From: Prosthecobacter sp.
GTDB taxonomy: Bacteria > Verrucomicrobiota > Verrucomicrobiia > Verrucomicrobiales > Verrucomicrobiaceae
Direction: 5' to 3'
DNA length: 36,069 nt
Assembly: GCF_029946185.1 (NCBI RefSeq)
Contig: NZ_JAQSEA010000157.1
Location: 1-36,069 of the forward strand
In this document: positions 5,872 through 29,987 of the stretch, piece by piece
Position numbering within the stretch: position 1 is the stretch's first letter
Layout of the letters: every line of letters starts with the position of its first letter
Notes under the pieces: model-generated
Database searches by the model: none
Seen by the model: only the letters and a program-made list of their open reading frames with translations
Told to the model about the DNA's origin: nothing
Program-made: the position numbers and the translations under genes

Positions 5872-6762
5872 TTAGTTCTTCGATTTCGGCACGGACTCCA
5901 TATCCTCCGGACGGTCGGAGGCTTTGCGCAGTTTTTTCCTTTTTGGTGGAGGCGCGCTGGGGTCAAAAGATTCACCGCCGACCACCTGCGCTCCGCCTTG
6001 CGTCATGATCAGGGAAGGGCGGTTGCCCTCCGGATCACGGTAGTAGGTGCGTTGGTGAATCTTGCCATCCGGGTTCACGATCACGTGGCAGAAAACATGC
6101 GGCATGGCCAGGAACAAGACATGCAGCTTGTTATGCACATCAATGCTGATCTGCGGCTGCACCGCCATCATGGCAGGCCCCAGCAGGAAGGTCGCGATGT
6201 AGGCATTGCTGCGATCATCGGTGATGCGGCAGTAAAGCTGCAGATCATTGAGCTCACGAAACAGGATCACCTGGTAGCGGCGCTGCCGCCCCGCGCCATC
6301 AAACCCCTGCGGCACACCAAACGGCTGGTCAAACATGTTCGGCTTCGAGTCCGTGATGGTCACCCGCACTTTATTGGACATGAAGTACTGGCCGGAAAGG
6401 GGATGCAGCACGTTTGCGATCATGGTGAAGGTGCCGAGATTGGCGGTGGAGTAGCCTCCGGAGATTTCGACCGTGTGCTTGGTCGTGCCGCCCGCCGGCA
6501 GGGTGATGGGTTCCTCTGAACCAATGCTCACAGGGGTGAGTCGCTGTCCGGTGGACTGCGTGATCTCAAACTGCAGCCAGTCCTTGGAGCCATGACCGCC
6601 CACGATCACATTGTCGCCGGAACGGTTCGTGATGCTCACCACCGCCACCACCGGCTCGCCCGTGAGGAATTGATTTTTCAGCAGAGTAAGATTGGTCACG
6701 TACTGGGCACGGGCCTGGCCGCAGCACAGGCAGAGGATTAAAAGTAGAAGAATCCGGTTCAT
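5872..6762 (-). CDS. Exported protein of unknown function, last gene of the pseudokinase cluster
   Basis: This 296-residue protein starts MNRILLLLILCLCCGQARAQ, a clear signal peptide probably cleaved after the ARA at residues 16-18. The mature part has an N-terminal beta-rich domain (roughly residues 20-130) with 'GEPVVAVVSITNRSG' and 'LPAGGTTKHTVEISGGY', a pattern like Ig-like or bacterial 'intracellular proteinase inhibitor'-type beta sandwiches. A second part (about 150-265) carries 'VDVHNKLHVLF'-like beta strands, and the C-terminal tail is Lys/Pro-rich and basic. I do not recognise a named family. The ATG at 6762 lies 5 nt after the stop of the upstream gene; a TTG at 6771 overlapping that stop is the alternative start. 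Tight spacing indicates co-transcription with the receiver/kinase/FGE fusion. Confidence 0.82.
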   Translation of the reverse strand: MNRILLLLILCLCCGQARAQYVTNLTLLKNQFLTGEPVVAVVSITNRSGDNVIVGGHGSKDWLQFEITQSTGQRLTPVSIGSEEPITLPAGGTTKHTVEISGGYSTANLGTFTMIANVLHPLSGQYFMSNKVRVTITDSKPNMFDQPFGVPQGFDGAGRQRRYQVILFRELNDLQLYCRITDDRSNAYIATFLLGPAMMAVQPQISIDVHNKLHVLFLAMPHVFCHVIVNPDGKIHQRTYYRDPEGNRPSLIMTQGGAQVVGGESFDPSAPPPKRKKLRKASDRPEDMESVPKSKN

Positions 6763-6767
6763 AAGCT

Positions 6768-8744
6768 TCAAGGATTGGGTTTGGCTGGAGGAGCGGTGCT
6801 GGTGGCAGTGCGGAACCCGCGCGCGAGTGTAGCCTCGTTTGCAGATTCAGGAAAGCGTCTGTCAGTGAGCAACTGGTCGTTGCTCTTCAGGCCAAAGTGT
6901 CCGCCACGCACCACCGGCACCTTGATGTCAATGTAATCCGGGTGTGAGGGCCATTCGCCAGACAAGGTTTCGCCAGCAGTCCATTCGCTGACGTTCCCCG
7001 CCATGTCACACACACCATAGGGGCTGATGTCCTGCGTAATGCGTGTGATCGGAGCCCAAAGATTGTACGCGTCGATCTTGCCACCCTTGCCTTTCGGCGA
7101 GGCATCGTAGTCATCACCTAGATTGGCGGCCTTGCTGTTGGGTTGGTTGCCCCAGGGGTAGATCAGGCCATGCTCACCACGGGCGGCTTTCTCCCACTCC
7201 TGCTCGGTCGGCAGGCGCTGACCGTTCCATTTGGCAAAGGCATACGCATCCCACCAGTCCACCTGGGAGACCGGTGTGTTAAGTGTGATGCTTTCACCGT
7301 TGAACGTTGTGCCCGCTTTCGCAGCGGCATAATACTGGCCCCACTTCATCGGTTCGTGGCTGGTTTTCGTCTTGGGTTGCAAGGAATGATCGAAGGCTCC
7401 CGCCGCAGCCTTTTTCAATGCCATCAGAAAGTCCGCATATTGGCCGATGGTGACCTCATGCTTGCTCATCCAGAACTCCGGCAGCTTCACCTTCTCATTC
7501 TTTTGATACACGAAGCTGCCTTCGGGGATCCTCACCAGCTCAATAGGAAGCGTTGACGCATTGTCAGTTCGCGGAGCATGGTTGCCGTTCATCAAGGCCC
7601 CAAGGCCTGCCACCACGATGAGGACGAAAACGATCATCATCCAGACCCACCACGGTTTGTTCCCGTTGACGCTCACTGGCATGGTCTCCGCCTCGATCTT
7701 GCGCACGATGCTGCGCTCACGCATGTCGTCACGCACATCATCCAGCGCCGTCAGCAGCCCGTTCCAGTCGTGGTGCGCAGCTGACAGCGTCTGCAGCAGT
7801 CCTCGGGACTTGCCCTCGGCCGCGACAGGTCGCATCAGGTCTAGAAATGCCTTCACATCCGCCTGGGCATCGCGCTTTTTGGCCGCCGCAGGGCGGAAGA
7901 AATTCACGATGCTCGACTGGTGGTCTGCATCGATGTAAATGTCTCGGGGCGAAATACTGCGATGATGATAGCCACGCTCCGTCGCAAACTGCATCGCCTC
8001 CGCCACCCCGAACAAAACCTCCGCAAGCCGCCGCTCGCTGAGCATCTCATGCGTCAGTTCGATTTCCGACAAACTCCGCCCGCGTGGCAGCTCGCGCGTG
8101 TAAAACAGCCAGCCGTTCGTTTCACCCGCCTCATACAGCGGGGCAATGCGCGGGTGCATCAGAGATGCCTTCACCCGCTCACGTCCCTTAAACTTCGCCA
8201 CCACGTCCTTCTGCTTCAGATACTCCGGTTTAAGCAATACCAGCGCCACCGGGCGTTGTACCGTGATCTGCAGCGCCCGGTAGGTTTCAGACTCACTTTC
8301 AATGTAGAGCCGTTCCAGCACCTGATAGTTCCCCAGCACCGTGCCTGGCACCATCACCGGCGGCGGCTCATTGGACTCCACCGGCAGCGTCAGCAGGGCA
8401 CGCACACGCTCCAGCAGTTTCTCCGGTGTGTACGGGGCGTCTTTGATCACCAGGCCATCAGCGATTTGATCTTCAAATCCCGTCAGGTCATAGCGCGTGC
8501 TAAACAGCACCCGTGTTTGCGGAAAACGTGCACGCACCGTGTCGCGCAGCGCAAAGCCGGTTTCCTGCGTTTCAAAAATCGCCTCGGTCACCAGGATGTC
8601 CAGCGAGTCTGCCTTCGCCACCCATGCGGCCGCGAGTGACGAGCTGGGAAAATCCACCACCGTGTAGCCAGGGAGATTGTCCCTCAGCCAGATAGTTCGG
8701 GTGCCGCGCAGAGCGGCGTTGGAATCGACAAACAAAAGAGTCAT
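6768..8744 (-). CDS. Pseudo-receiver / pseudokinase / TM / FGE-like fusion protein
   Basis: The protein has 658 residues and four parts. Residues 1-120 form a CheY-like receiver: acidic D7, T83 and K101 are kept, but the phosphoacceptor position reads DILVTEA, with Glu54 in place of Asp. Residues about 138-345 form a Ser/Thr-kinase fold with no Gly-rich loop. There the VAIK-type Lys is Val169 (VALVLLKPE), the HRD motif is HRS (261-263), the catalytic-loop Asn is Asp268, and DFG is NFF (281-283), so it should not phosphorylate. One membrane span lies at about 364-386. Residues 400-650 are an FGE/SUMF1-like (DUF323) domain with EVTIGQYADF, RLPTEQEWEKAARG, YPWGN, MAGNVSEW, VVRGGHFG and the final RGFR. 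The Cys pair used for formylglycine formation is not evident. The kinase side should face the cytoplasm and the FGE-like side the periplasm. It is second in a three-gene minus-strand cluster. Confidence 0.9.
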   Translation of the reverse strand: MTLLFVDSNAALRGTRTIWLRDNLPGYTVVDFPSSSLAAAWVAKADSLDILVTEAIFETQETGFALRDTVRARFPQTRVLFSTRYDLTGFEDQIADGLVIKDAPYTPEKLLERVRALLTLPVESNEPPPVMVPGTVLGNYQVLERLYIESESETYRALQITVQRPVALVLLKPEYLKQKDVVAKFKGRERVKASLMHPRIAPLYEAGETNGWLFYTRELPRGRSLSEIELTHEMLSERRLAEVLFGVAEAMQFATERGYHHRSISPRDIYIDADHQSSIVNFFRPAAAKKRDAQADVKAFLDLMRPVAAEGKSRGLLQTLSAAHHDWNGLLTALDDVRDDMRERSIVRKIEAETMPVSVNGNKPWWVWMMIVFVLIVVAGLGALMNGNHAPRTDNASTLPIELVRIPEGSFVYQKNEKVKLPEFWMSKHEVTIGQYADFLMALKKAAAGAFDHSLQPKTKTSHEPMKWGQYYAAAKAGTTFNGESITLNTPVSQVDWWDAYAFAKWNGQRLPTEQEWEKAARGEHGLIYPWGNQPNSKAANLGDDYDASPKGKGGKIDAYNLWAPITRITQDISPYGVCDMAGNVSEWTAGETLSGEWPSHPDYIDIKVPVVRGGHFGLKSNDQLLTDRRFPESANEATLARGFRTATSTAPPAKPNP

Positions 8745-8763: not shown

Positions 8764-10059
8764 TCATCTGCTCATCGGCGGGAGCAGCGGATTCACACCC
8801 GCAGGAGCGGTGCCGGGTGTGGATCCGAACTCCAGGAGATCACGGGGCTCGGCAGCCACATCCTGGAGTTTGTTGTTGTAGTAGAGCCGGAGCATGTACC
8901 CGTAGTAAGAACGGCGTCCATGCTGTTGGATTTCGGCGGCGGAAAGTGCAGGCAGGTGATAAACGACATCCAGCAGCTCCTCACCGGTCCCGTTCCAGTC
9001 CACCGGAGCGGTCTGCCAGGATTCCACCGGTTCAGGCGCGATTGTCAGTGCCACTTTTTCGTTGTTCACTCGGTCAAAAAAGAACACCTCAAGATTCAGC
9101 TCCTGCGAGTTGATCGGACGGTTGCCCGCCCGGGAAATGGGAACATGCAGCACGTAGCGTTCGCCGGTGGGAACCAAGAAATCACGGGTAGCCTGACAGG
9201 CGCCGAGGCGCAGGAACTTTTCGCCGTCCGCACCAGAGGGAGCCGAAAGCGCGGGTGCTCCCACCGCCGCCGAACCCGCGCCCAAGCGTCGTGAGGCAAG
9301 TTCAAAATAAATGCCCGCCTTCGTTTCTCCGAGAAGCTGAATGCGCCGCCACGCGTCCGTTGCCTTGGCCGTGATCCCCATCTGTTCGTAAGTCTGCGCC
9401 ATCTCGGCAATGATTGCCGGATGCGCAGGCGTCAGTTCATCCGCCTTCCGCAGCAGTTCCAAAGTTCCCTGCATGTCACTCAGGCCGCGGAGTTCCTGCG
9501 CCGCCGTGATGACGTAGTTCACATCCTTCAGCAGCGCCGTGGCGGCATCAGGTTTGGAGTTGGGCCCGGACGGTGCCGTCGTCGGGAACCCAGAAGCAGA
9601 CATGCCAGGCTCTGCGGGAGGCGGCAAGGTCTGAGAAGTCCCAGGCATGGGTGGAGCTGGGGCCGCTGGAACAAACGGCGCTATCGCAGTGGGCGCAGTC
9701 GGAGGAATAAACGAAGGGGTCGGCCCCGGTGCCGCAGTTCCAGGCATGCTGAATGAGCCAATGGGTGGCGGAGCATTGGAAATCGGGGCTTGGATGAACG
9801 ATCCCGGCAGCGGTGGAGCGCTGGCACTCGGTGGCATCGAAATCTGGCCGATCTCCGGCACCCCGCTCAGCGCAGGTGCGGTCATGGGTGCGGTTGGAGG
9901 CGGCACGACTACCATGGGCCCCTCAGCCTGAGGAGGGCCAGCCGTGAGCAGCTTCAGCGCCAGACTCATCTGCACCACCGCCAGCACACACAGCGTCCCC
10001 CAAGCGATCATTGAGGAGCGATCGCGTTCGGAGGTAAGAATGGTGGATGTAGGAGTCAC
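8764..10059 (-). CDS. Membrane-anchored Pro-rich protein with TPR-like and beta domains
   Basis: This 431-residue protein has an N-terminal membrane anchor at about residues 16-40 (MIAWGTLCVLAVVQMSLALK). A Pro/Ala/Gly-rich linker of about 130 residues follows, then a TPR-like helical segment at about 170-255 (LRGLSDMQGTLELLRKADEL, HPAIIAEMAQTYEQMG). The C-terminal beta-rich domain contains 'INSQELNLEVFFFDRV' and 'YYGYMLRLYYNNKLQD'. The topology places everything after the anchor outside the cytoplasm. I know no specific family. The start is GTG at 10059; the Met at residue 17 is an alternative but would leave no cytoplasmic tail. It is the first gene of the cluster; the fusion gene begins 19 bp after its stop. 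A partnership with the FGE-like periplasmic domain is plausible but inferred. Confidence 0.82.
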   Translation of the reverse strand: MTPTSTILTSERDRSSMIAWGTLCVLAVVQMSLALKLLTAGPPQAEGPMVVVPPPTAPMTAPALSGVPEIGQISMPPSASAPPLPGSFIQAPISNAPPPIGSFSMPGTAAPGPTPSFIPPTAPTAIAPFVPAAPAPPMPGTSQTLPPPAEPGMSASGFPTTAPSGPNSKPDAATALLKDVNYVITAAQELRGLSDMQGTLELLRKADELTPAHPAIIAEMAQTYEQMGITAKATDAWRRIQLLGETKAGIYFELASRRLGAGSAAVGAPALSAPSGADGEKFLRLGACQATRDFLVPTGERYVLHVPISRAGNRPINSQELNLEVFFFDRVNNEKVALTIAPEPVESWQTAPVDWNGTGEELLDVVYHLPALSAAEIQQHGRRSYYGYMLRLYYNNKLQDVAAEPRDLLEFGSTPGTAPAGVNPLLPPMSR

Positions 10060-10090: not shown

Positions 10091-10108
10091 TTAGGCCTCC
10101 TAGTGTCA

Positions 10109-11374
10109 ATGTTTCAGGGTTCTTCGTTCAAAATGCCGGAAGGTCACACCCTGCCGTTGTTCTCTCATGCCATAGAAACGTCGCCGCACTATCATCCGTG
10201 CGATTTTTCCTTCACCCCGGCTGAAATAGCGGCACAACTGTGCCATCGCGAAGGCTTCGTTTGGATGGATTCCTCCCTCGAGACCCCCGGTGCCATCTCC
10301 ATTCTCACCGCCGAACCCGTCGCCGTTCTCCAGGGCCACATCGACCACGACTGGGAAAAAGTGCGCACCGCCCTCCGCATTCCCCGCGCCTCCGCCGGCG
10401 GTTTGTACGGCTGGGTCGGCTACGACGGCCACTTCACCTTCGGCATCTACCCCCACGGCCTCGTTTATCATCATGACACCGCAAAATGGTTCGAATTCGG
10501 CGATTTCAAATGGCAACCCTCCGCCTGCCAGCCTGCTGCCGCCCCACGCCTTCATTTCACACCCGGCGTCAGCAGCGCAGACTTCATTCACAGTGTCGAG
10601 CGTGCCCAGTGCTACATCGCCGCCGGAGACATCTACCAGGTAAACCTCTCCTACCCTTGGCAGGCCGCATGGCCCCAGGACGCCGATGCCCTCGCCCTCT
10701 ATTTAAAACTCCGAAAGGTGTCCCCCGCGCCGCATGCCGCCTTCATGCAGCTCGCCGGCACCACCGTCCTCTCCGCCTCACCCGAGCTCTTCCTCCGCAT
10801 GCAGGGCTCCCGCATCGCCACCCGCCCAATTAAAGGCACCCGCCCCCGCTTCGCCAACGATCCCGCACGTGACGCCGCCGCCGTCCGCGAGCTCACCGCC
10901 TCGCCCAAAGAACGCGCCGAACTCCTCATGATCACCGACCTCGAGCGCAACGACCTCGGCCAGGTCTGCGAATTCGGCAGCGTCGCCGTCCCCGAGCTCT
11001 GGCGCGTCGAAAGCTTCGCCCAAGTCTTCCACCTCGTCTCCACCGTCACCGGCACCCTCCGTCCCCACATCGACCACGTCGATGCCTTCCGCGCCTGCTT
11101 CCCCGGCGGCAGCATTACTGGAGCCCCCAAAAAACGCGCCAGCGAAATCATCACCGAACTCGAACCCCACCCCCGCGGCCTCTACACCGGCGCCATCGGC
11201 TGGTTCGGCTTCGACGGCCGCAGCCAGTGGAACATCGCCATCCGCACCGCCGTCCAAAAAGACAACCAAATCACCTTCCACGTCGGCTCCGGAATCGTCG
11301 CCGACTCCATCCCCCAGCACGAATACGAAGAAACCCTCCACAAAGCCTCCGGCCTCCTCGCCGCAGCAGGCTGA
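10109..11374 (+). CDS. pabB: Aminodeoxychorismate synthase component I
   Basis: A chorismate-binding enzyme of about 421 residues. With an amidotransferase partner it converts chorismate and glutamine to 4-amino-4-deoxychorismate for folate synthesis. The catalytic block is well conserved: PIKGTRPR at about 240-247, TDLERNDLG at about 277-285, FPGGSITGAPK at about 331-341 and, near the end, GSGIVADSIPQHEYEE. The Lys in PIKGT (residue 242) is the residue that distinguishes PabB from anthranilate synthase TrpE, which has Ala there. No glutaminase (pabA) or lyase (pabC) gene is adjacent, so those must lie elsewhere. Possible starts are GTG 10103, ATG 10109 and ATG 10133; the homologous region begins well after all three. 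The gene is strongly biased to C in third codon positions. It is transcribed divergently from the pseudokinase cluster. Confidence 0.93.
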   Translation: MFQGSSFKMPEGHTLPLFSHAIETSPHYHPCDFSFTPAEIAAQLCHREGFVWMDSSLETPGAISILTAEPVAVLQGHIDHDWEKVRTALRIPRASAGGLYGWVGYDGHFTFGIYPHGLVYHHDTAKWFEFGDFKWQPSACQPAAAPRLHFTPGVSSADFIHSVERAQCYIAAGDIYQVNLSYPWQAAWPQDADALALYLKLRKVSPAPHAAFMQLAGTTVLSASPELFLRMQGSRIATRPIKGTRPRFANDPARDAAAVRELTASPKERAELLMITDLERNDLGQVCEFGSVAVPELWRVESFAQVFHLVSTVTGTLRPHIDHVDAFRACFPGGSITGAPKKRASEIITELEPHPRGLYTGAIGWFGFDGRSQWNIAIRTAVQKDNQITFHVGSGIVADSIPQHEYEETLHKASGLLAAAG

Positions 11375-25096: not shown

Positions 25097-25271
25097 GGTG
25101 GGGAAGGTCAAAGAACTACCACAGAGTTCACCGAGAGGCACAGAGTTCTGAATTCATATCTTGGTGTTTCTCTATGGTGAAAAACGACGCCGTCGCGGTA
25201 TCTCCATGGCCGATTCCTCATAAAACTTGTCTGCTGGCATGGGTTTCTGATAGCGTTTGTGTCCTCCGACC

Positions 25272-28200
25272 ATGAAACGCCTGCTTTTCCTTCTTCTCGC
25301 CGCCCAGCTCCATGCGGAGACTCAGATCACCTGGAAGCGCCAGCAACTGCACGGTGACTTTTATTCTGAGGGTGCTGCCATCGGCGACATCAATGGTGAT
25401 GGCAAACCGGACGTCGTGTCCGGGCCGTTCTGGTGGGAGGGGCCGAGGTTTGAGAAGAAGCACGCCTACTACGAGCCGAAGATTTTCAGCATCAATGGCT
25501 ACTCGGACAACTTCTTTGCCTATGTGCAGGACTTCAATGCGGACCAGAAGAATGACATTCTGATTCTTGGGTTTCCGGGCAAGGAGGCGCGGCTTTATGT
25601 GAATTCCGGTACGCATGATGACAAGCCGTGGGCGATGCACATCGTCGCCGACGTGGTGGACAACGAATCTCCCGTCTTCACCGACATTACTGGCGATGGC
25701 AAACCGGAGATCGTGTGCAGCACTGGGGGCAAGTTTGGCTGGTTTGCGCCGAATTGGGAAAAACCGACAGAGAAGTGGCCCTTCATCGCTGTGAGCGACG
25801 ACATGAAGGTCGCGAAATTCACGCATGGCCTTGGTGTTGGTGACGTGAATGGGGATGGGAAGATGGATTTGCTGGAGGCGCGGCGGTGGTGGGAGAATGG
25901 ACGGAAGGGGGTCGCAAGCTCCAGACCGGACTTGGCAAGTCCGGCTCCTTGGGCGCAGCATAACTTCGCGGCTGGTGTGGGTGGTGGTGCGCAGATGTTT
26001 GCGTATGATTTTGATGGGAACGGGACGAACGATGTGTTCACGAGTCTGGCGGCGCATCGGTATGGCGTGGCGGTGTATTTGCAGAACAAGCCTGCGCCGG
26101 ACAAACCGAACTGGACGCGCGTGATGCTGGCAAGCGAGCAGCCGCAGGACAATGAGTACGGCATTGTTTTCTCGCAGCCGCATGCGGCGTATCTCGCTGA
26201 CATGGATGGCGACGGCGTGAAGGACATCGTGACCGGCAAGCGCTACTGGGCGCACAACGGACACGATCCTGATGAGCGCGGGGCACGTGTCATCTACTGG
26301 TATCAAACCAAGCGCGATGACAAGGGTGGCGTGGATTTTGTGCCGCATCTTGTCGATGCTGAAAGCGGCGTGGGTGTGGATGTGCAGGTGGGTGATGTGA
26401 ACGGGGACAAGCTGCCTGACATCGTGGTGGGAAATAAGGCGGGGGTGTTCGTCCTCACGCAGGAGCGGAAAGAGACGACAGCGAACCTGACGCCGAAGAA
26501 GATGTACGGCCCGGCTCTCATGGCGCAGAAGGATTATTCGAAAGGTCTGTCACCGCAGGAGGCGCTGAAGGCGCTTCAGCTTCCCGGCGGCTTCAAAGCG
26601 GAACTCATTGCGAGCGAGCCGGATCTTGTGCAGCCGATTGCCTTCACGTTTGATGAACGTGGGCGCATCTGGGTGGTGGAGGGAAACAGCTACCCGAAAC
26701 CGCGTGAGGTGGGTGCTGGGCAGGACCGGATCAAGATTCTCGAGGACAAAGATGGCGATGGGGTTTTTGAGACGAAGAAGATTTTTTGTGAAGGGCTGAA
26801 TCTTGTCAGTGGGATTGAGCTGGGATTCGGCGGTGTGTGGGTCGGTGCGGCGCCGTATTTGATGTTTATTCCGGACAAAGACAAAAACGATCAGCCTGAT
26901 CCGTCCGATCCGGCGGATCAGCGTCCCAAGGTTCCCGGCCTCAACTTCACTGCCTATGTCCTGCTCGACGGCTGGGGAAGCCAGGACACGCACGAGACGC
27001 TGAACAGTTTCATCTGGGGCCCGGACGGCTGGCTTTACGGCTGCCACGGTGTCTTCACGCACAGCCGTGTCGGCAAGCCCGGTACACCGGATGATCAGCG
27101 CAAGCCCATCAACGCTGGCATCTGGCGTTATCATCCCGTGCGGCATGAGTTTGAAATTTTCGCTGAGGGCACGAGCAATCCCTGGGGGTTGGATTACGAC
27201 CAGCACGGCGAGTTTTTCGTGACCGCCTGCGTCATCCCGCATCTTTACCACATCGTGCCGGGTGGGCGTTACCAGCGGCAGGCCGGGCAACACTTCAATC
27301 CTTACACGTATGAGGACATCAAGACTATTGCGGACCACGCGCACTATGCGGGCAGCCTGCGTCCCAACATTAACTTCGATAAGTCCACGGGTGCCGGTCT
27401 CGCCAACGATGACACGAATGCGCTGGGCGGTGGGCATGCGCATTGCGGACTCGCTATTTATCAGAGCAGTCTCTTTCCGCCGACGTACCGCAATCAACTG
27501 ATCTTCGGCAACCTGCATGGGCACCGACTGGTGACCAATTACACCGATCCTCATGCGAGTACTTATGTTGGCAAGCACGGCAGTGACTTCATGCGCGCAA
27601 ACGACATGCACTTCATTCCCGTGACGCAGAAGGTGGGGCCTGATGGTGCGCTGTATGTCAGCGACTGGAGCGATGAACAGATCTGCCATCGTGGCAGTAA
27701 TGCGGTGGAGAACTGGGATCGCAGCAACGGGCGGATTTATCGGATTAGCTACGACGGCTGGAAACCATGGAAGGGTGATTTGGCAAAGGAGAGTGATGAG
27801 ACGTTGGCGAAGCTGGCGGTGCAGTCGGAGAACGAGTGGTTCTCGCGCATGGCGAGGAGGGTGCTGATGGAGCGCGTTTCGAGCACTTACGATTTTCACC
27901 GGCTCTCGAAGGCCGCCGCCCTTTCTCTTTTGGAATTTGACTCCAAAGACGACACTCCTGTAACGATTCGCCTTCGTAAACTGTGGGCAGTTCATGTCAG
28001 CTTGGGGAATGTGAACGTTAAATCTGCTTTTGAATCTCCCCATGATGCCATGCGGGCTTGGTCAGTCCGTCTTCGTCACCCAGATGAATTCATCGCCATA
28101 CGTCAGAACCTGGCTGTTACGGACAAATCCCCCTTGGTACGGCGTGAACTCGCTTCTTCCCTCCCGCGCCTGCGACCAGCAACCGCGATTGCCCTTGCCA

Positions 28201-29987
28201 AATCCCTCCTTGCCCACGGCGAGGACAAGGACGACCCGATGATTCCGCTGCTGATCTGGTATGGGATTGAGCCGGTTGTGGGGGCTGATCCGAAGGTGGG
28301 GCTGGAACTCGCGCGGGTGTCGAAGCTGCCGAAGGTGACGGAGTTTATTTATCGTCGCTTGTCGTCGGATGATGCGGGGCGGGCTTCGATGCTTTCTGGA
28401 CTCACGAAGGAGTCGGATGCGGCGAAGCGTGAGGCGACGCTGGGGATGATCTTGAGCAGTGCCCGCGGTGCAGGCAAGCTGACCATGCCGCCGGACTGGG
28501 CCACGACTGCGGTGAAGCTCAAGGCAGGCGGACCGGCTAAAGCCGGGACTGCGGAACAGCTGGTGACCGAACTTTCGGCGTTGTTTGGGGATGCGGAGGC
28601 ACTGCAAACTTTCCGTGAGCGGCTGGCACTTGCCAGCGCTCCGGTGAATGAGCGCGAGAAGGCGCTTGGCGTTCTCATTCAGACGGGCGATGGGGCCAGT
28701 GCGAAACTCTTGCAGCAGATCCTCACGCAGGACGCTCCGGCTTCGCTGAGGAGGAAGGCGATTCAGGCACTGGCTTCGTTCAAGGACGTGGGAACGCCGA
28801 AGGTGCTCGGGGCGCTGCTGCCCAAGTTTTCTGCCAATGAACTGCCTGATGCGGTTAACACGCTCGCTTCGACGAAGGAAGGCTCCAAGGAGCTGCTCAA
28901 GGCCGTTGAGGCCAAGGCGGTGCCTGCCACGGCGCTTTCACCTTTTCTGGTTCGCCAGCTGACGGCCTTTGATGACAAGGAGATCAATGCGCTGATCAAA
29001 TCGGCCTGGGGCGATGTGAACGCGCCGAAGGCGGATCTTGGCGAGCGCACGAAGAAGTATCGGGAACTGCTGACGCCCGCCGCTTTGGCGAAGGGTGATC
29101 TGGTGAAGGGCAAGATGCTCTTCGCTGCGACCTGCGGGCAGTGTCACAAGCTGTTTGGCGAAGGGCAGAGCGTGGGGCCGGACATCACGGGGAGCAATCG
29201 CGCTGATTTGAATTACCTGCTCGAAAACGTGCTCGATCCGAATGCGGTGATCGGCAAGGCGTATCAGCTCAATCTTTTCACCATGAAGGATGGGCGCGTG
29301 ATGGGCGGGGTCATCAAGGAGGAAAGCCCTGTGGCGGTGAAGATCGCGATGATGGGCGGGGTGGAGTTTACCTTGCCCAAGCCGGACATCGCCAAGCGTG
29401 AGGTGTCGAAGTATAGCACGATGCCGGAGGGGTTGTTTGATGCGCTGAAGCCGGAGCTGGTGATTGATCTGGTGAAGTATCTGCAAAGCGGGGCTGCCGG
29501 ACAGGCTTCCTTCTCCGCCAAGGCTACGAAGGACGGGAAAGCTGGGACTACACTACCCGGAGCACTGGAAGGCGAAGCGCTGAAGGTTCTCGCCAAGACT
29601 GGCGGCAATGCGAAGTCGCAGGGCATGGGTAGCTTTGGCGGCAAGTGGAGCGGTGGCTCGCAGCTCTGGTGGACCGGCGCGAAACCCGGGCAGAAACTGA
29701 CGCTGGCGCTGCCGGTGTCGGAGAAGGGGAATTACGAGCTCAAAGCTGCGCTTACGATGGCGCGTGATTATGGCATCATCGACGTGGCGCTTGACGATAA
29801 GCCTATCGTCACGTGTTGGGACGGCTACAACGGGCCCAAAGTCATCAACAGCGATGAGCTGGACTGGGGCACGCATGAGTTGGGCGCTGGCGAGCATCAG
29901 ATGACGATCACGATTGCAGGCAAGCATGCGGATGCAGCGCCGGGATACATGGTGGGGCTGGATTATGTGCGGCTGGAGAAGAAGTGA
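25272..29987 (+). CDS. Giant exported FG-GAP / dehydrogenase / HEAT / CxxCH heme-binding protein
   Basis: About 1,571 residues. The signal peptide is MKRLLFLLLAAQLHA (residues 1-15). Residues about 30-400 carry FG-GAP/VCBS calcium-binding repeats (GDINGDGKPDVV, GDVNGDGKMD, DMDGDGVKDIV, GDVNGDKLPDIV). Residues about 440-860 form a PQQ/sugar-dehydrogenase-like propeller of the PVC 'membrane-bound dehydrogenase' type (GRIWVVEGNSYP, GVWVGAAPYL, GPDGWLYG). HEAT-like helices run from about 880 to 1270. A CxxCH heme site at 1288-1292 is followed by KLFGEGQSVGPDITGSNR, the PVC-type heme-binding domain. A beta domain closes the protein and resembles carbohydrate-binding modules. Likely role: periplasmic oxidation of a sugar or other substrate with electron delivery through the heme. 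The ATG at 25272 is preferred over the TTG at 25257. Confidence 0.92.
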   Translation: MKRLLFLLLAAQLHAETQITWKRQQLHGDFYSEGAAIGDINGDGKPDVVSGPFWWEGPRFEKKHAYYEPKIFSINGYSDNFFAYVQDFNADQKNDILILGFPGKEARLYVNSGTHDDKPWAMHIVADVVDNESPVFTDITGDGKPEIVCSTGGKFGWFAPNWEKPTEKWPFIAVSDDMKVAKFTHGLGVGDVNGDGKMDLLEARRWWENGRKGVASSRPDLASPAPWAQHNFAAGVGGGAQMFAYDFDGNGTNDVFTSLAAHRYGVAVYLQNKPAPDKPNWTRVMLASEQPQDNEYGIVFSQPHAAYLADMDGDGVKDIVTGKRYWAHNGHDPDERGARVIYWYQTKRDDKGGVDFVPHLVDAESGVGVDVQVGDVNGDKLPDIVVGNKAGVFVLTQERKETTANLTPKKMYGPALMAQKDYSKGLSPQEALKALQLPGGFKAELIASEPDLVQPIAFTFDERGRIWVVEGNSYPKPREVGAGQDRIKILEDKDGDGVFETKKIFCEGLNLVSGIELGFGGVWVGAAPYLMFIPDKDKNDQPDPSDPADQRPKVPGLNFTAYVLLDGWGSQDTHETLNSFIWGPDGWLYGCHGVFTHSRVGKPGTPDDQRKPINAGIWRYHPVRHEFEIFAEGTSNPWGLDYDQHGEFFVTACVIPHLYHIVPGGRYQRQAGQHFNPYTYEDIKTIADHAHYAGSLRPNINFDKSTGAGLANDDTNALGGGHAHCGLAIYQSSLFPPTYRNQLIFGNLHGHRLVTNYTDPHASTYVGKHGSDFMRANDMHFIPVTQKVGPDGALYVSDWSDEQICHRGSNAVENWDRSNGRIYRISYDGWKPWKGDLAKESDETLAKLAVQSENEWFSRMARRVLMERVSSTYDFHRLSKAAALSLLEFDSKDDTPVTIRLRKLWAVHVSLGNVNVKSAFESPHDAMRAWSVRLRHPDEFIAIRQNLAVTDKSPLVRRELASSLPRLRPATAIALAKSLLAHGEDKDDPMIPLLIWYGIEPVVGADPKVGLELARVSKLPKVTEFIYRRLSSDDAGRASMLSGLTKESDAAKREATLGMILSSARGAGKLTMPPDWATTAVKLKAGGPAKAGTAEQLVTELSALFGDAEALQTFRERLALASAPVNEREKALGVLIQTGDGASAKLLQQILTQDAPASLRRKAIQALASFKDVGTPKVLGALLPKFSANELPDAVNTLASTKEGSKELLKAVEAKAVPATALSPFLVRQLTAFDDKEINALIKSAWGDVNAPKADLGERTKKYRELLTPAALAKGDLVKGKMLFAATCGQCHKLFGEGQSVGPDITGSNRADLNYLLENVLDPNAVIGKAYQLNLFTMKDGRVMGGVIKEESPVAVKIAMMGGVEFTLPKPDIAKREVSKYSTMPEGLFDALKPELVIDLVKYLQSGAAGQASFSAKATKDGKAGTTLPGALEGEALKVLAKTGGNAKSQGMGSFGGKWSGGSQLWWTGAKPGQKLTLALPVSEKGNYELKAALTMARDYGIIDVALDDKPIVTCWDGYNGPKVINSDELDWGTHELGAGEHQMTITIAGKHADAAPGYMVGLDYVRLEKK
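25926..25944. repeat. Palindrome inside the giant heme-binding gene
   Basis: CCGGACTTG and CAAGTCCGG form a perfect 9-bp palindrome around one G. It encodes part of a low-complexity insert (VASSRPDLASPAP, about residues 213-225) that interrupts an otherwise conserved FG-GAP unit. The reading frame is kept. Confidence 0.6.

Follow-up and report, generated by a model that had tools for sequence, protein, structure and literature searches.

A receiver-like, pseudokinase and FGE-like membrane protein in a three-gene module of Verrucomicrobiota

Genes and domains at the locus

The window, i.e., the whole stretch of DNA analyzed here, comprises 36,069 nt of Prosthecobacter sp. (contig NZ_JAQSEA010000157.1 of assembly GCF_029946185.1). 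Three genes on its minus strand, designated A, B, and C, follow one another closely (Table 1): gene A ends 19 nt before gene B, and the likely ATG of gene C lies 5 nt past the gene B stop. Gene B had been described from the sequence alone as a 658-residue fusion of a receiver, a kinase, one membrane span, and an FGE-like domain, with no strand named for the open reading frame; the strand is minus, and the fusion was borne out by Pfam, phmmer, homologs, modeling, and hydropathy. Elsewhere in the window, a 1576-aa open frame (25257-29987, plus strand) lies over long antisense ORFs (25218-26348 and 26550-28043), and either strand of that region may be coding.

Table 1. Coordinates of genes A, B, and C, of the parts of gene B, and of amidase genes that follow gene C in other loci
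Feature	Position	Strand	Basis
Gene A, 431 aa, N-terminal TM, Pro-rich stretch, TPR, C-terminal domain	8764..10059	-	Adjacent to B in 35/38 f1 and f2 genomes
Gene B, 658-aa receiver-like/pseudokinase/TM/FGE-like protein	6768..8744	-	ORF and translation, ATG start, 21 full-length genus orthologs, dN/dS
Receiver-like domain, residues 1-120	8385..8744	-	Model vs receivers Z 12.5; Response_reg in homologs
Glu54, receiver phospho-acceptor site	8583..8585	-	22/22 in genus; Asp in 17/75 class-wide copies
Pseudokinase domain, residues 133-345, shortened activation segment	7710..8348	-	phmmer to PknB/StkP; motif counts; C-lobe Z 11.8
Val169, VAIK Lys position	8238..8240	-	Alignment
Ser263, HRD Asp position	7956..7958	-	Alignment
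Asn281, DFG Asp position	7902..7904	-	Alignment; Asp in 0/75 copies
Single transmembrane helix, residues ~364-386	7587..7655	-	Hydropathy; model helix 365-386
FGE-like domain, residues 396-650, without catalytic Cys pair, putatively periplasmic	6795..7559	-	PF03781 8.5e-40; Cys check
Gene C, secreted, signal peptide	5872..6762	-	ATG at 6762 (ORF listing: TTG at 6771); A-B-C contiguous in 27/38 f1 and f2 genomes
Amidase_3 gene after gene C (other loci)	L084:8634-9284; L089, L090, L092, L134, L135, L147, L148, L161, L162, L168, L169		

The domains of gene B were recognized with unequal strength. The FGE fold matched PF03781 (FGE-sulfatase) strongly, at E 8.5e-40 over residues 416-647, and SUMF2 was matched at 7e-16 by phmmer against the PDB. 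Residues 132-311 matched StkP/PknB at ~1e-10 in the phmmer search; the Pfam match to Pkinase (E 6.3e-5) lay under the cut-off. No receiver was detected by Pfam in the window copy, which is too divergent, but homologs of gene B matched Response_reg (PF00072) at up to E 5.9e-17 and passed the cut-off.

In an AlphaFold model of residues 1-345, residues 1-119 aligned with the CckA receiver (Z 12.5, rmsd 2.0, 98 residues), as expected of the (beta-alpha)5 receiver fold, and residues 217-342 with the C-lobes of PknB-type kinases (Z ~11.8). The model is weak overall (mean pLDDT 54), and its kinase N-lobe is of low confidence; because the N-lobe is unreliable, claims on nucleotide binding were not drawn from the model. 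About 123 model residues cover what PknB spans with 187, in keeping with a shortened activation segment and C-lobe. A full-length model built with 13 close orthologs was poor (mean pLDDT 40.6) and was used for secondary structure only; it contains a helix at residues 365-386. Loci from the genome searches did not enter the structure predictions, and alignment depth was limited accordingly. Hydropathy windows starting at residues 363-372 all exceeded 1.6, which indicates one transmembrane span.

The VAIK Lys, HRD Asp, and DFG Asp are all replaced in the window copy (V169, S263, and N281), and the Gly-rich loop and the full activation segment are missing in its lineage. In the receiver, the acidic neighbor D7 is kept, the next residue is Ser/Ala, and the Lys column aligns poorly. 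These replacements, Glu54, the lost Gly loop, and the absence of an FGE Cys pair were all called correctly in the sequence-only reading, which had also asked whether orthologs share the four substituted residues. Full-length orthologs were found in 21 of the 23 other genomes of the genus, at 57-95% identity; named relatives are Prosthecobacter and other Verrucomicrobiaceae MAGs. Glu54 and Asn281 are each present in 22/22 genus copies, residue 169 is Val in 21/22 (one Ala), and at residue 263 there is S, T, or R, never Asp. All three domain regions (receiver, kinase, and FGE) are under purifying selection, with dN/dS values of 0.03-0.13. Given this conservation and the low dN/dS, the unusual residues are held by selection and reflect neither sequencing error nor decay; with a full-length copy in 21/23 genomes, gene B is not a chance ORF. 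It is scarcely conceivable that the receiver and kinase halves are a functionless, decaying remnant: every catalytic motif is indeed lost in the window copy, but this reading is contradicted by the selection test in both halves and by class-wide retention. A pseudogene was likewise rejected on dN/dS and class-wide distribution.

With gene B as the query, each genus genome gave 7-32 matches. Most of them are other kinases of the Hanks type, which amounts to a large repertoire. Relatives of gene B were not found on the viral contigs searched. PADLOC matches to PD-T4-6 and mad6 covered the generic kinase region only, and a defense role was not accepted.

Kinase and receiver across the class

A search of 388 genomes of the phylum and 209 of the class gave 75 diverse gene B copies. 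The position of the DFG Asp is occupied by Asn in 66, Gly in 6, and His in 3 of them, and by Asp in none; at the HRD position Asp was found in 1/75, probably an alignment accident. The activation segment is short throughout, with 15-20 residues between N281 and the next helix in all 75 copies (17 in the window copy). Since the DFG Asp is absent from the whole set and the HRD Asp is essentially never present, the catalytic Asps were gone before the family spread. The alignments thereby place the death of the kinase in or before the common ancestor of the class-wide family. The VAIK Lys is kept in 18/41 copies outside the window's order vs 3/34 inside, and the third loop Gly in 33/41 vs 4/34; judged from these counts, the features needed for nucleotide binding eroded at a later stage, within the window's order. 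Orthologs with intact K/D/D residues had been named as evidence against the pseudo-enzyme reading: in some distant homologs the Lys and the receiver Asp are intact, but the HRD and DFG Asps are not. It has been shown that kinase folds may support other reactions, such as AMPylation or glutamylation, as in SelO and SidJ (PMC12599244). Persistence of the Gly loop and Lys in some outgroups is in line with such an activity in gene B; it is nevertheless very improbable, since the window lineage retains neither the Lys nor the Gly loop, and both catalytic Asps are gone along with most of the activation segment.

The receiver has a different history. Its acceptor residue is Asp in 17 of the 75 copies, Glu in 19, and another residue in 15, and the domain is missing in 24. 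All 17 copies with Asp lie outside the window's order. The domain is missing in all 20 rows of family f2, for which "Akkermansiaceae-like" is an inferred label. In other orders, several gene B copies carry DUF4388 (PATAN) between receiver and kinase. Across the family, receiver degeneration was thus late and piecemeal and kinase death early. The proposed pairing of two pseudo-enzymes therefore holds for the kinase throughout the family, but for the receiver only in part.

It had been suggested that the fixed Glu mimics a phosphorylated receiver; in its strongest form, Glu54 would be a permanent phosphomimic locking gene B active. All Verrucomicrobiaceae rows have Glu, which turns up again in distant clades, with at least five changes over the tree, so that it has repeatedly arisen from other states, and D7 is one acidic neighbor kept. 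However, sister families carry G, N, S, or L in this place, f2 has dispensed with the receiver, and an Asp-to-Glu change does not always mimic phosphorylation. Mimicry is possible and is not required by the data; a permanent lock is quite improbable.

Conservation within gene B is highest in the FGE half, which is retained where the receiver has been lost. The catalytic Cys pair was found in none of the 75 homologs, the window copy having none. Judged from relatedness, the family is probably also present in Akkermansia-type gut bacteria; no paper with Akkermansia transposon data for genes A, B, or C was found in the literature searched.

Gene neighborhood and a possible scaffold

The two main families, f1 and f2, are represented by 38 genomes; A and B are neighbors in 35 of these, and 27 have an unbroken A-B-C row. 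The remainder of the class adds 16 genomes with contiguous A-B-C and 10 with A-B, the gaps being short (positions behind these counts were transcribed by hand). The unit is a three-gene module with B in the middle, kept throughout one class of the Verrucomicrobiota. Gene C matched no Pfam family and gave no convincing PDB match (best E 0.1). It lies apart from A-B in several genomes and occurs without a detectable gene A in many genomes of the class, including families f20, f86, f87, and f98; it may have a wider role. The middle position varies as well. In family f19 (L129, L130, L139), C comes straight after a shortened gene A, with B absent between them, and in one locus of family f10 the place of B between A and C is taken by a DUF4388 protein of 231 aa (L148:8848-9540) whose N-terminus is receiver-like. 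A chorismate-binding (pabB-type) gene at 10103-11374 of the window diverges from gene A, a pairing seen in 15 examined loci, and a common intergenic control region is possible.

In 12 of the loci examined, representing six families (f2, f4, f6, f10, f106, and f108), the gene next after C codes for an Amidase_3 protein (N-acetylmuramoyl-L-alanine amidase); it lies on the same strand as C, at a spacing of -268 to +107 nt (Table 1). Every such amidase gene detected in the examined stretches that contain C occupied this place. The linkage suggests a cell-wall role. It could also be unrelated co-transcription, as housekeeping NnrD/E comes next after the amidase in some loci. In the window genome the amidase is not beside A-B-C, and its closest homolog is on another contig. 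Taken on its own, a cell-wall role is possible but doubtful.

We propose that the product of gene B is a transmembrane scaffold without catalytic function, which would link a receiver-type input in the cytoplasm to a complex with the products of A and C in the periplasm; in our estimation this could equally well prove right or wrong. In its favor are a kinase fold that selection maintains although its catalytic motifs have gone, the conserved gene order, and the intact receivers of outgroups; the loci in which C lies apart or B is absent speak against it. The cytoplasmic half would consist of the receiver-like domain and the dead Hanks-type kinase, joined by one helix to a periplasmic FGE-fold domain that has no active site and would serve as a binding module. 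Given the signal peptide of C and the N-terminal TM of A, both products are expected in the same periplasm as the FGE half, C as a secreted protein and A as an inner-membrane-anchored periplasmic TPR protein, and the FGE domain would be the output, docking on both. In the ancestral form, phosphorylation of the receiver probably altered the packing or dimerization of the pseudokinase and thereby the periplasmic complex, i.e., signaling from inside to outside. In Verrucomicrobiaceae the input may have been fixed at Glu54 or substituted by protein binding, and in f2 the receiver is absent. One likely output is control of envelope or peptidoglycan remodeling, given the cell-wall amidase gene located behind C in several lineages. 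Complex formation, the direction of signaling, and the cell-wall role are inferred.

The opposite direction has also to be considered. The FGE half had been taken for a sensing domain, and in such a system this domain, perhaps with A and C, would bind a ligand and the pseudokinase relay the signal to cytoplasmic partners. Sensory domains outside the cytoplasm are common among membrane Hanks kinases, and the conservation of the FGE half despite receiver loss is in accordance with such a role. However, nothing observed here shows sensing. The conserved neighbors of gene B seen were A, C, the amidase, NnrD/E, and pabB; a cytoplasmic partner gene fixed beside B is absent, and the fixed partners are envelope proteins. 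Furthermore, the intact receiver of the outgroups is an input domain on the cytoplasmic side, so that inside-to-outside signaling fits equally well or better. We consider sensing from the outside rather unlikely. The role of the scaffold proposed here is testable by simple deletions, since both of its partner genes are fixed and an amidase is linked to them.

Comparison with known systems

Bacterial pseudokinases are largely unexplored, and in the gene B family a kinase that is dead across the class accompanies a receiver whose state varies (acceptor Asp, Glu, or another residue, or no domain at all). Its closest working parallels are two membrane pseudokinases. EssB/YukC of type VII secretion has a dead kinase with a degraded Gly loop and a short activation loop, one TM, and a scaffold function (PMC12599244; PMC11217815). 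Gene B resembles it in having a pseudokinase, predicted to be cytoplasmic, with degraded motifs and Gly loop, a short activation loop, a single TM, and a putative non-catalytic role. The domain order and the TM agree as well, and the FGE-like domain of gene B would correspond to the extracytoplasmic domain of EssB. EssB differs in having no receiver or FGE domain, and a type VII secretion partner was not recognized among the neighbors examined in a non-exhaustive search. In mycobacteria, MviN (MurJ), of the ActPs3 family, carries a dead kinase on a membrane protein and regulates peptidoglycan synthesis by recruiting a partner (PMC12599244). It shares with gene B the membrane location, the dead kinase, and the activation-loop deletion; however, MviN is a large protein of the membrane that acts in peptidoglycan synthesis, has no receiver or FGE domain, and comes from another phylum and gene neighborhood. 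Gene B has one TM only, and a multi-span MurJ-type membrane domain was not found by Pfam or hydropathy. Neither EssB/YukC nor MviN is described in PMC12599244 with a receiver or an FGE domain.

The other parts have precedents of their own. The FGE/SUMF1 superfamily, especially SUMF2 and GldK/PorK, the latter an FGE-like structural lipoprotein, shares the FGE fold (PF03781) and the absence of the Cys pair; the match of gene B to the GldK model was far under its curated cut-off. Gene B differs in that its FGE domain is joined via a TM to a cytoplasmic pseudokinase. Several outgroup B proteins resemble receiver-PATAN (DUF4388) response regulators in having Response_reg followed by DUF4388. In B these are joined to a pseudokinase, a TM, and an FGE domain, and the window copy has neither DUF4388 nor the acceptor Asp.

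The sequence-only reading knew of no system with this domain order, and no match was found in the literature searched, in which few subscription papers were covered, for either the architecture or the operon. A 2025 review of bacterial pseudokinase families leaves Verrucomicrobia and receiver-linked or FGE-linked families unmentioned.

FtsEX-EnvC-amidase is a transmembrane complex controlling a periplasmic amidase. The likeness of A-B-C to it would be one of logic, the link being drawn from gene order. If extended to function, A-B-C would be an envelope machine of Verrucomicrobiae in which a receiver, via a dead kinase and a helix, controls an FGE/TPR complex and an amidase: a two-component-driven counterpart of FtsEX-EnvC, whose receiver was later fixed or lost in some lineages. 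We consider this picture unlikely. The individual domains are already known, as is the concept of scaffolding by a membrane pseudokinase; the combination found here and the class-wide operon appear to be new.
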